A stretch of DNA of 64,000 nt from NCBI RefSeq assembly GCF_900104775.1, contig NZ_FNSA01000003.1:3658001-3722000 (forward strand), in the 5' to 3' direction. Position numbers and translations under genes: made by a program. Shown in pieces: positions 12,891-45,394 of this stretch. The stretch's first letter is position 1. Each line of letters starts with the position of its first letter. This DNA comes from Tsukamurella tyrosinosolvens (GTDB taxonomy: Bacteria > Actinomycetota > Actinomycetes > Mycobacteriales > Mycobacteriaceae). The notes below the pieces were generated by a model. That model ran no database searches, was not told the origin of the DNA, and saw only the letters and a list, made by a program, of their open reading frames with translations.

Positions 12891-14111
12891 ATGGAGATGT
12901 CCGCCGCCCGGCGGTGGTGGATCCTGGTGGTCTCGATGACCGCAGCGATCACCACGACCGCCGCCGTGAACTGCACCGCCTTTCTCCTCCCCCAGCTCAT
13001 CCAGGGCGGCCTGAGCCCGCAGCGCGCCGGGCTGTTCGCCGCCGCCGCGCCCGCCGGGCTGCTGCTCACCACGATCCTGTGGGGCGTCATGATCGACCGG
13101 TACGGCGAGCGCCGCGTCCTGCTGATCAGCATGGCCGGCGCCGTGGCCGGGCTGGCGGCCGCCGTTGCGGCGTTCGCGGCGCACGCTCCCCTGTACGTCG
13201 TGGCCCTCGCACTGTTCGTCGCGTCCGCGATGGCGGCGAGCGGCAACGGCGCGAGCGGCCGGATCGTGGTCGGCTGGTTCCCGGCGTCCAGCCGCGGCAC
13301 CGCGATGGGCATCCGCCAGACCTCGCAGCCCCTGGGCATCGCGCTGCTGTCGTTGACGATGCCGCTGCTGGCGAGCCGCGCCGGCCTGACCGCGGCGATG
13401 CTCGTGCCGCTCGCCGTGGCCGTCGTCTCCGTCGTGCTGGTGTGGGCGTTCATCGTCGATCCGCCGCGGCCCGAGACCGGTCCCGCGGCGGTCGACGCAC
13501 GCGCGAACCCGTACCGGGAGGACTCCTTCCTGGTCCGCATCCACGCCGTCTCGCTGTTGCTGGTGCTGCCGCAGGGCGCGATCTGGACGTGGGGCATCAC
13601 CTGGCTGATCGTCGGGCTGCACTGGGCGCCCTCGACCGCCGGGCTGCTCATCTCGGCGAGCCAGCTGCTCGGGGCGGGCGGGCGGATCCTGGCGGGCGCC
13701 TGGTCGGACCGGCTGGGTTCGAGGACGTCGCCGATCAAGTGGATCGCCCTGGCCGCCGCCGCCTCGATGGGCGGGCTCGGCGCGCTCGCCGCGGTCGGCT
13801 CGCCCATCGCGGTGGTGGTGCTCCTCGTCGCGTCGGTCGTGACCGTCGCCGACAACGGGCTGGCGTTCACCGCGATCGCCGAGAAGGCCGGGCCCTACTA
13901 CAGCGGCCGCGCCCTCGGGATACAGAACACCGGGCAGTTCGTCGCGACGACCGCCGCCGGGCCGATCCTCGGCGCCCTGATCCACGCGACGGGTTTCGGC
14001 GCCGCCTTCGCCATCGTGGCCCTGGCCCCGCTGCTCGCCTACCCGCTGGTCCCCTCCGACGCGAAGGTCCCCGAACCGCAGGAGGCGGCACCGTCGTTGC
14101 CCCGGAAATGA
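12891..14111 (+). CDS. MFS transporter
   Basis: A 406-residue major facilitator with about twelve hydrophobic segments. The loop between helices 2 and 3 (GVMIDRYGERRVLLIS) carries the MFS motif A pattern. The ATG at 12891 has GGGAG upstream and is preferred over an in-frame TTG at 12879. It resembles organic-anion or multidrug type transporters rather than sugar porters, but the substrate is unknown. The TGA stop codon (14109-14111) is part of the 18-bp inverted repeat that follows. It is divergent from the FAH-family gene, with only 90 bases between. Confidence 0.88.
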   Translation: MEMSAARRWWILVVSMTAAITTTAAVNCTAFLLPQLIQGGLSPQRAGLFAAAAPAGLLLTTILWGVMIDRYGERRVLLISMAGAVAGLAAAVAAFAAHAPLYVVALALFVASAMAASGNGASGRIVVGWFPASSRGTAMGIRQTSQPLGIALLSLTMPLLASRAGLTAAMLVPLAVAVVSVVLVWAFIVDPPRPETGPAAVDARANPYREDSFLVRIHAVSLLLVLPQGAIWTWGITWLIVGLHWAPSTAGLLISASQLLGAGGRILAGAWSDRLGSRTSPIKWIALAAAASMGGLGALAAVGSPIAVVVLLVASVVTVADNGLAFTAIAEKAGPYYSGRALGIQNTGQFVATTAAGPILGALIHATGFGAAFAIVALAPLLAYPLVPSDAKVPEPQEAAPSLPRK

Positions 14112-14173
14112 CTTAACAGCGTTAGCCCAGGGCGCTTCCTGGGAGAACGCCTGCTGCTAACGCTGTTAAGTCA
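14109..14173. repeat. short inverted-repeat element related to the ends of the 44.3-45.3 kb element
   Basis: The 18-base arms TGACTTAACAGCGTTAGC (14109-14126) and its exact reverse complement (14156-14173) enclose a second small hairpin, CCCAGG-GCGCTT-CCTGGG (14126-14143). The left 34 bases match the left end of the element at 44268 with one difference. It lies between the convergent MFS and leuB genes and overlaps the MFS stop codon, so it may work as a terminator. No direct repeat flanks it (GAAAT on the left, AGGGC on the right), so it may be an old or deleted copy. Confidence 0.8.
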
Positions 14174-44234: not shown

Positions 44235-44322
44235 CCCCACCCTGACCTCTGACCTCGCCGCCACCCGGACTTAACAGCGTTAGCCCAGGACGCTTCCTGG
44301 GACTTCTCCTGCATCGGCTGCT

Positions 44323-44340
44323 GGCTACCCGCCGGTAGCC
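44323..44340 (+). repeat. hairpin upstream of the AbiEi/DUF559 gene
   Basis: GGCTACC and GGTAGCC form 7-base arms around CGCC, inside the left part of the element and 37 bases before the gene start. A longer alternative pairs ATCGGCT (44313-44319) with AGCCGAT. It could affect transcription of the gene. Confidence 0.45.
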
Positions 44341-44377
44341 GATACAGGGGAACCGCAACACAGGGCTCGCGCGTAAA

Positions 44378-45289
44378 ATGAACATGGGGGCGTTCGAGCG
44401 CGAGGTGCATCGATCAGCGGACCTGATCGCCGCCGTGGGCCGGTATGCGGCGGAGAAGGACTACCTCTGCATCACACCCGGCTTCCGAGTTCCGCGCGGA
44501 TCCGCCGGCGGCGCGGTCGGAGACCTCGCGACGGCGATGATCCGCCAGTACCCCGGATCCGCGCTGTGCGGCTGGACGGCGGCGCGACTGCACCTGCACA
44601 CGATGGCGAAGTCACGGGAGATCGTCGAAGTCCTGGGGCCGAAGCAGATCCGCCGACGCGGCATCCTCAGTCGTACCGCCGAGTTCGACGCGGACGACAT
44701 CGTCGTCCGCTACGGGCTGCCGTGCACCTCACCGCTCCGCACGACGATGGACCTCATTCGCTACACCGCCGGCGACGAGGGCATCGCCGCCGCGGACCAG
44801 TGCCTCCGCGTCTTCGGCAGGCCGGCCACGACGCACCGTCCGGCCTGGGTGTCGCGCCCGGCGATGGCGACCGCGGCGCAGATCGAGGCCGAGCTCGCGC
44901 GACGCGAGTGGTGGCGGGGCACCCGCATCCGGTCCGTTCTCGACGAGGCCGACGGTCGCGCCCAATCGCCGTGGGAGACCTTCTCCCGGTTGACGCTCCA
45001 TCGCGCCGGACTGACGACCATGATTCCGCAGGTTCCCGTGCTCGACGGCGAGTACTTCCTCGACCTCGCCGACGAGGAGCACAAGGTCGCCGTGGAGTAC
45101 GACGGCGCCCATCATCGCGACGCGAAGCAGCACGCCGCCGACGTCGAGCGCTGGAACGTGCTCGAGAAGGACCTCGGCTGGAACCTCATCATCGTGACGT
45201 CGGGGCCGTTGACGAACCGCCCGGACGTCCTCCTTCGCCGCGTCCGCACCGCACTCGCGGAGCGCGACCATCCCGCTACCAGTGGGTAA
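44378..45289 (+). CDS. AbiEi/DUF559-type protein (PD-(D/E)XK endonuclease-like C-terminus)
   Basis: A 303-residue protein of a family that occurs in many copies in actinobacteria. The middle part (GSALCGWTAARLHL; LRTTMDLIRYTAGDEGIAAA) matches AbiEi-type antitoxin relatives, and the C-terminal 110 residues fit the DUF559/Vsr-like nuclease fold: SPWETFSRLTLHRAG, then D in YFLDLADEEH and E.DG in VAVEYDGAHH. These acidic residues could form a metal site. The start is taken as the ATG at 44378; the ATG at 44384 is possible. It is the only gene of the repeat-bounded element. No partner toxin gene is beside it. DNA activity is inferred, not shown. Confidence 0.8.
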   Translation: MNMGAFEREVHRSADLIAAVGRYAAEKDYLCITPGFRVPRGSAGGAVGDLATAMIRQYPGSALCGWTAARLHLHTMAKSREIVEVLGPKQIRRRGILSRTAEFDADDIVVRYGLPCTSPLRTTMDLIRYTAGDEGIAAADQCLRVFGRPATTHRPAWVSRPAMATAAQIEAELARREWWRGTRIRSVLDEADGRAQSPWETFSRLTLHRAGLTTMIPQVPVLDGEYFLDLADEEHKVAVEYDGAHHRDAKQHAADVERWNVLEKDLGWNLIIVTSGPLTNRPDVLLRRVRTALAERDHPATSG

Positions 45290-45394
45290 CCAGCACTCGC
45301 CGCAGACGTTTCCCCAGGACGCCGCCTGGGCTAACGCTGTTAAGTCACCCGACGGGTCGATCCGATGGGCCGAGGTCAGCGCCGCGGGCGACCG

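Follow-up and report, generated by a model that had tools for sequence, protein, structure and literature searches.

On balance, the cassette described here is probably the enzyme gene of a system that resembles REP/RAYT but works with an unrelated enzyme; the gene itself is best read as encoding the family-A enzyme in a genome of the Tsukamurella tyrosinosolvens type. Different homologues of this gene are enclosed by different repeats, the repeats are dispersed, their dispersal is associated with the presence of the gene, and the arms of the repeats co-vary with those at the gene.

The cassette lies within the window, by which we mean the whole stretch of 64,000 nt of T. tyrosinosolvens DNA that was analyzed (the source genome has 5.28 Mb). 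It forms a unit of 1079 bp at positions 44268–45346. The same 22-mer, GACTTAACAGCGTTAGCCCAGG, is found at 44268–44289 on the forward strand and at 45325–45346 on the reverse strand, with no occurrence in 100 shuffles, and the inverted match of the two ends extends over 72 bp at 78% identity (44268–44339 and 45275–45346). A third perfect end of this repeat family, called family A, begins at window position 14110 as part of a 63-bp mini element. The main features are as follows.

44378..45289, forward strand: two-domain nuclease gene, 303 aa, with a predicted AbiEi-like N-terminal part and a predicted Vsr/EDxHD-like C-terminal domain (ORF, Pfam, PADLOC AbiEi, AlphaFold2, Foldseek).
44963..45268, forward strand: predicted nuclease domain, residues 196–297 (invariant E200, D229, E240, H246 and D255; match to 3r3p).
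44268..44339, forward strand: left family-A end with outer arm GACTTAACAGCGTTAG, a spacer-like part and an inner hairpin (repeat comparison).
45275..45346, reverse strand: right family-A end, an inverted copy of the left end (repeat comparison).
44263..44267, no strand: ACCCG outside the left end, a possible target duplication or perhaps a coincidence, absent in other elements.
45347..45351, no strand: ACCCG outside the right end (sequence).
14110..14172, no strand: palindromic family-A mini element, 63 bp, within a larger terminator-like stem and between convergent genes, which we take to be an MFS transporter gene and a leuB-type gene.

A first-pass annotation of this DNA had proposed a mobile cassette with inverted terminal repeats, ACCCG touching both ends from outside, and a single AbiEi/DUF559 gene without a transposase. 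These structural observations held: the 22 terminal bases are identical within the longer match, ACCCG directly adjoins both ends, and the 303-aa gene is the only coding gene within the unit, with no transposase gene among its ORFs and Pfam matches; a PADLOC match weakly supports the AbiEi-like part. The neighboring genes encode an alpha/beta-hydrolase, Rrf2, CMD, GatA and GatC, and no AbiEii toxin gene stands beside the nuclease gene, whose neighbors are CMD, Rrf2 and gatA. In T. tyrosinosolvens NCTC13231, 3000 bp around the unit are identical (0 mismatches). Seven plasmid records gave matches, three of them from this strain; the record NZ_LR134451.1, filed as its ‘plasmid 9’, carries the core genes gatA and gatC and is therefore probably a chromosome fragment. 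No match was found in 50,697 phage records. As the best of these three plasmid records holds gatA and gatC and phage matches were zero, carriage by phage or plasmid was rejected.

The C-terminus of the encoded protein matches DUF559 over its Pfam cut-off (E 2.2e-5), with an MTES_1575 REase match below its own cut-off, and the N-terminal part is AbiEi-like (best PADLOC E 1.1e-6). An AlphaFold2 model based on 44 relatives reached a mean pLDDT of 91.3. Foldseek matched it to the catalytic domain of I-Bth0305I (3r3p; probability 1.00, target TM 0.74–0.78) and to the AbiEi-family protein Rv2827c (1zel; probability 0.93–0.97, TM 0.33–0.34; E 0.012 for the match with probability 0.97 and TM 0.33), with no match at E <0.001 and with mitoribosome chains ranking above both 3r3p and 1zel. 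A profile search returned the endonuclease-like protein 3hrl at E 1.3e-4 and 3r3p at E 0.45. These matches and the model lead us to predict a two-part protein, with an AbiEi-like part for DNA binding and a Vsr/EDxHD domain resembling that of homing endonucleases. E200, D229, E240, H246 and D255 are invariant in all 44 aligned relatives and, judged by their order, are candidate catalytic residues.

The EDxHD enzyme I-Bth0305I is described as dimerizing on a target that spans nearly 60 bp (PMC3943268), and the monomeric proteins AbiEi and Rv2827c are described as recognizing inverted repeats of 23 bp (PMC7319586). The fit of these figures with Tsukamurella palindromes of about 60–64 bp is suggestive, not proof. 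In genomes G001, G008 and G010, identity to the window's version is 93, 84 and 77% for the nuclease and 96, 95 and 94% for gatA; by this measure the nuclease seems to evolve faster than neighboring genes. The Y1 (RAYT-type) transposase domain PF01797 was found in 0 of 16 Tsukamurella genomes and in 5 of 14 control genomes, and a RAYT acting in trans was accordingly rejected for the genus.

In at least seven named genera of actinobacteria, genes related to that of the nuclease are enclosed by inverted repeats, often palindromic, that are specific to each family. An inverted flank match was present at all 20 homologue loci compared in 15 genomes (best E up to 2.5e-5, in a comparison that contained no control), and the repeat sequences differed between different homologues. 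For a controlled flank test, we took the best 80 of 197 relatives from a scan of genome contigs as named loci and applied one rule to the genes and to 1001 shifted control intervals. Seven loci with flanks of <300 bp were dropped, leaving 73. The 99% control level (25) was exceeded by 40 of the 73 loci and by 6 of the 1001 controls, and 37 loci exceeded the maximum of all control intervals (28). Loci above the 99% level were found in Tsukamurella (21/26), Williamsia (3/4), Pseudonocardia (6/8), Mycobacteriaceae (6/13), the Arthrobacter group (1/4), Geodermatophilaceae (1/1), Pseudokineococcus (1/1) and Nocardia (1/8), and at none of eight loci from Gordonia, Dietzia, Lolliginicoccus, Sinomonas and two MAGs together. 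The remaining 33 loci were at or below this level, for example 7/8 in Nocardia and 3/3 in Lolliginicoccus. The test misplaces some right flanks: locus L116 was scored as lacking a repeat, its stop codon having been placed 813 bp beyond the proper position, and it is the same gene as L079, which has a flank repeat in the 20-locus comparison. The 26 Tsukamurella loci include L118, on a contig filed as Acidobacteriaceae; L117 and L118 (CAJCHX010000839.1 and CAJCHX010000779.1) are titled Acidobacteriaceae bacterium BOG_194 and correspond to G012 in Tsukamurella, so that the title is probably wrong.

Most flank repeats lie near the start and stop codons, and many are imperfect hairpins of about 60–80 nt; a few long flank alignments, for example at L152, L158 and L173, extend into coding sequence and are less clear. 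Similar repeats go with similar proteins only where the proteins are close (Mantel r=0.63, 0/5000 permutations, 39 loci). An in-frame stop or frameshift occurs in the matched range at 9 of the 80 loci. Pseudonocardia endophytica possesses three nuclease genes (L152, L165 and L187), each with a different flank repeat, that of L152 being less clear. The first-pass annotation had named, as the finding that would speak against mobility, an end sequence occurring only as a conserved terminator behind unrelated genes; instead, the ends constitute a real repeat family and are paired around AbiEi/DUF559 genes in several species.

In the source genome, the 22-mer has 10 matches at ≤3 mismatches and none in the backward control. 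Two of the matches are the unit's own ends, five fall within four complete palindromes, and three are single ends. The complete palindromes are 63 bp long and have arms of 16 bp, of which one contains a mismatch. Family-A matches at ≤2 mismatches occur in 11 of 16 genomes of the genus, own genome included, and further end pairs about 1.08 kb apart were found in same-genus genomes. The flanks of family-A genes consist of the outer arm and another stem, not the full mini palindrome. Many further family copies are intergenic palindromes, some inside terminator-like stems. Several palindromes, at 14110–14172 and at other mini-element sites, sit in larger GC-rich complementary flanks resembling intrinsic terminators. 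Beside the other family-A ends of this genome, no convincing nuclease remnant was seen at nine loci; one match (L012) was rejected as a remnant, being an intact family-B gene.

The paired inverted ends, the mini elements bearing the same ends and the ACCCG on both sides are what would be expected of an ordinary passenger or IS-type transposon, with the DUF559 gene as cargo, a transposase acting in trans, the mini elements as MITEs and ACCCG as a target duplication. We compared ten places and counted the eight units or mini elements with both flanks readable, leaving out G007 (one left-flank base) and G010b (no unit). Matching outer bases were found only at the unit of the window (1/8) and at none of the four mini elements of the same genome, so that the proposed 5-bp target duplication was rejected as a trait of the family.

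The region next to gatA was compared among 15 genomes with an orthologous gatA. A nuclease unit adjoins gatA in six of them (G000, G001, G004, G006, G008 and G013); that of G006 points the other way. The site is occupied instead by a 63-bp mini element in G015, where a 68%-identical nuclease homologue is located elsewhere in the genome. In G007, a family-A end and a diverged end enclose other DNA (L100:2–1457), with what we take to be a DoxX-like reading frame and an apparent decayed fragment of an IS110-type transposase, and no nuclease. In G010, the Rrf2-CMD gene pair stands between gatA and the unit. Neither unit nor end is present at the site in six genomes (G002, G003, G005, G009, G011 and G014). 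The position of the unit therefore varies from genome to genome. G001, G006 and G013 (L110, L111 and L112) showed no Rrf2-CMD pair in the 4 kb next to gatA; in these three unit-carrying species the pair was perhaps deleted by recombination between repeats.

Relatives without the unit thus exist, whereas the precise empty site with a single ACCCG that the first-pass annotation had suggested looking for did not turn up, the intergenic DNA being too diverged between species. The gatA site and four mini-element sites show absence and no unambiguous junction. At the third mini-element site, three species without the element also miss about 30 bp of flank on its sides, which makes deletion as likely as insertion there. 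Of the mobile cassette, the paired ends, the repeat family and the sites without the unit stood, and the target duplication did not. The varying position and orientation near gatA would suit a transposon as well, yet the other elements carry no duplication, each homologue family has its own repeats, and arms change in concert in place (see below). We regard the transposon explanation as highly improbable; the REP/RAYT-like model fits the unit better.

In Tsukamurella, the palindromes form three dispersed families of about 60–64 bp that are associated with their cognate gene. Family B (arm ACATCTTTCGAAGCGTTCTGCGA) is mostly 64 bp long, with 5–21 ends in 10 of the 16 genomes. Family C (arm ATTGAACGACGTTCTGGAGA) is 61 bp long, with 13–29 ends in six genomes, 1–2 in two and none in eight. 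Backward controls gave zero for families A, B and C, and the highest count, within the mismatch limits used, was 29 ends per genome. For the association test, gene flanks were removed, broken gene copies were scored as present and phylogeny was ignored. At least two dispersed ends were found for family A in 8/8 genomes with the gene vs 2/8 without it (Fisher p 0.0035), for family B in 6/6 vs 4/10 (p 0.026) and for family C in 5/5 vs 2/11 (p 0.0048). At a threshold of at least five ends, the association was kept for A (6/8 vs 0/8) and C (5/5 vs 1/11) and was gone for B (3/6 vs 4/10, p 0.55). Palindromes without a detected cognate gene were present for family B in G002, G005, G006 and G009, and for family C in G013.

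Two further features of these palindromes were seen. Palindromes with unrelated arms share, with slight changes, a spacer core resembling ACCTGCGG or its complement; it was found in family-C copies, at L128, L129 and L132, and at G000:C3:4580475–4580537. A third T. tyrosinosolvens nuclease gene (L359; NZ_LR134464.1, 1411–2310) is flanked by palindromes that represent one more family-C-like variant, AATTGAACACCGTTTCTG (score 27).

Outside Tsukamurella, one Pseudonocardia genome has 23 ends and three others have none, and three of four genomes of the Arthrobacter group have 11, 17 and 27 ends, partly in arrays with 52-bp steps. Short BIME-like arrays with this step lie at G028:C15:45727–45877 and G026:C5:300204–300325. 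Mycobacterium, taken as a second test of dispersal, came out negative, with clear dispersal in none of five genomes: two have 4–5 ends, all but one in each located at the gene, one has two weak ends and two have none.

An orphan defence nuclease is a further conceivable explanation; the protein would cut foreign DNA, and the palindromes would serve to label or shield the cell's own DNA, or to insulate the gene. The PADLOC AbiEi matches point that way, as do Vsr-type REase domains in proposed defence proteins (PMC3710099). Such a role leaves unexplained why dispersed copies follow the resident gene, however, and among the alpha/beta-hydrolase, Rrf2, CMD, gatA and gatC genes around the unit there is no evident partner. 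We give it hardly any credence, the least among the explanations considered.

The dispersed arms of family C have changed in concert, in place, toward the arms flanking the resident gene. We collected 62 family-C loci, comprising all listed positions away from the gene in G001, G003, G006, G009 and G013 and the gene loci of G003, G006 and G009, with a search pattern able to detect both arm variants; in G013, six elements were recovered from ten positions. Arms reading ACCGTTA account for 31/34 in G006 (T. pseudospumae) and 12/12 in G013 (T. spumae), together 43/46, vs 0/64 in G001, G003 and G009. In G006, G009 and G003, the gene flanks carry the same arm variant as the dispersed copies. The comparison of flanks yielded 15 sets of shared positions, and of the 12 positions common to G006 and the other group, 11 are switched in both arms, L287 being the exception.

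For the comparison of arm similarities we used 54 of the 62 loci, leaving out three gene loci with two palindromes, four G013 loci without a recovered pattern and one 60-bp element. Between groups, orthologous arms are no more alike than non-orthologous ones (0.803 for 34 pairs vs 0.808 for 670 pairs, p 0.49), and arm similarity within one genome is 0.908. Within a group, orthologous arms are slightly more alike (0.931 vs 0.904). For the 19-nt spacer, orthologous copies stand out within a group (0.879 vs 0.707 for others), showing locus specificity, but between groups they are no more alike than others (0.726 vs 0.724).

After orienting the loci by their flanks, spacer orientation is constant in 14 of the 15 sets. 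An apparent inversion of the spacer between orthologous copies was therefore rejected as an artefact of contig direction, and replacement of copies in random orientation did not take place. The surroundings of the family-C gene are shared by G006, G009, G003 and G001; the gene was not found in G013, whose assembly comprises 80 contigs. Because the palindromes and the gene (three genomes compared) hold conserved positions, movement is rare or old.

The conserved spacer orientation lowers the reading in which palindromes are cut and converted and raises that of selection on binding sites alone, a serious rival if, on the whole, an unlikely one. According to this rival, the palindromes are only binding sites or terminators, the protein is an AbiEi-like regulator or architectural factor, and the arms co-evolve by selection with no cutting or movement. 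Positions and spacer orientation that stay stable between species (14/15) while both arms change are explained just as well by it; several copies lie between convergent genes or within larger GC-rich stems, and AbiEi-type proteins autoregulate via 23-bp inverted repeats (PMC7319586). However, a large number of substitutions would have to have arisen in parallel, in both arms and at 11 of the 12 positions shared, and the rival accommodates less readily that repeats are also found behind the stop codon, that the candidate nuclease residues are invariant, and that the spacers lack between groups the locus-specific similarity present within a group (0.879 vs 0.707).

Under the preferred reading, in which the cassette holds the enzyme gene of a REP/RAYT-like system, the gene for the two-domain protein has a copy of its cognate palindrome or inverted repeat on either side, and further palindromes between genes present inverted arms of about 16–23 nt around a spacer. 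One protein would bind each arm, as AbiEi does its 23-bp repeats, and two nuclease domains, brought together over the spacer, would nick or cut the DNA there or close by. Repair would then copy another palindrome, so that a palindrome is rewritten and the favored arm spreads; rarely, repair might seed or move a palindrome copy or the gene. Binding, cutting, conversion and movement are activities that we infer for the predicted nuclease. Points against this reading include the failure to find a clean new insertion together with its exact empty site, the low copy numbers, the palindromes in genomes without a detected cognate gene, and the 33 of 73 loci that do not exceed the 99% control level.

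More tentatively, and with rather less than even confidence, we suggest a second, independently evolved kind of REP system, in which a natural paired nuclease, with an AbiEi-like binding part on each arm and two EDxHD-like cutters above the spacer, rewrites dispersed palindromes by cut-and-repair conversion. All palindromes of a genome would then track the specificity of the enzyme, like a built-in gene drive, in many actinobacterial genera. Among the matches listed in the open-access literature, none linked DUF559/AbiEi genes with dispersed palindromes, and a separately evolved counterpart of REPs looks undescribed in the open-access literature searched. If true, the partnership of an enzyme with dispersed palindromes arose at least twice, a role is suggested for many actinobacterial ‘DUF559 domain-containing proteins’, and the concerted evolution of bacterial repeats becomes testable in a simple system of an enzyme plus a 61-bp palindrome. 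The system may also offer nucleases with separable DNA-reading and cutting parts.

Several known systems share single traits with the one described here. The unit fails the tests for an ordinary IS, having no consistent target duplication, and for an AbiE pair, having no AbiEii. Like MITEs and their IS, short elements bear the terminal repeats of a larger gene-bearing unit; unlike them, there is no transposase inside, no consistent target duplication, and the arms change in step in place. To the AbiEi antitoxin (AbiE type IV toxin-antitoxin; Rv2827c) the protein shows a weak resemblance in its N-terminal region, with a weak match to 1zel, and the inverted arms are similar in length to the 23-bp repeats of AbiEi; the protein differs in the predicted nuclease domain at its C-terminus and in that no AbiEii toxin gene adjoins. 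With EDxHD homing endonucleases (I-Bth0305I) and Vsr it shares the C-terminal fold predicted by the model and the order of the conserved E, D, H and D residues. A homing endonuclease gene interrupts its target, whereas the present gene lies between intact repeats and is joined to an AbiEi-like part; at the gatA site of relatives the unit is absent with no precise junction. REP-like palindromes without a dedicated transposase, untagged or CGTC-tagged, have been described, the untagged ones also in M. tuberculosis (PMC3733652); here, in contrast, each family flanks a gene.

The closest parallel, in layout and behavior, is REP/RAYT as described in PMC2817692, PMC3116915, PMC8049555 and PMC3733652. 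According to PMC2817692 and PMC3116915, the RAYT gene lies between two inverted palindromes, with extragenic palindromes dispersed through the genome, also as doublets with a spacer; gene and copies are correlated, enzyme and repeats co-evolve, the gene is static in orthologous contexts, and the enzyme evolves faster than its neighbors. Here too, a nuclease gene is delimited by two inverted repeats (37/73 loci above every control), and dispersed copies are correlated with the gene, weakly for family B and not visibly in Mycobacterium; the arrays beside the nuclease gene in the Arthrobacter group recall BIMEs. The differences are that the palindromes of families A, B and C, on inspection, have no GT(A/G)G head at their foot, that there are at most 29 ends per genome vs usually >100 copies for REPs, and that a predicted Vsr/EDxHD nuclease with an AbiEi-like part takes the place of the Y1 HUH transposase. 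In the portions of the literature consulted, the enzymes tied to REP repeats are HUH tyrosine transposases only; the present system, with its different enzyme, belongs to the Actinomycetota.
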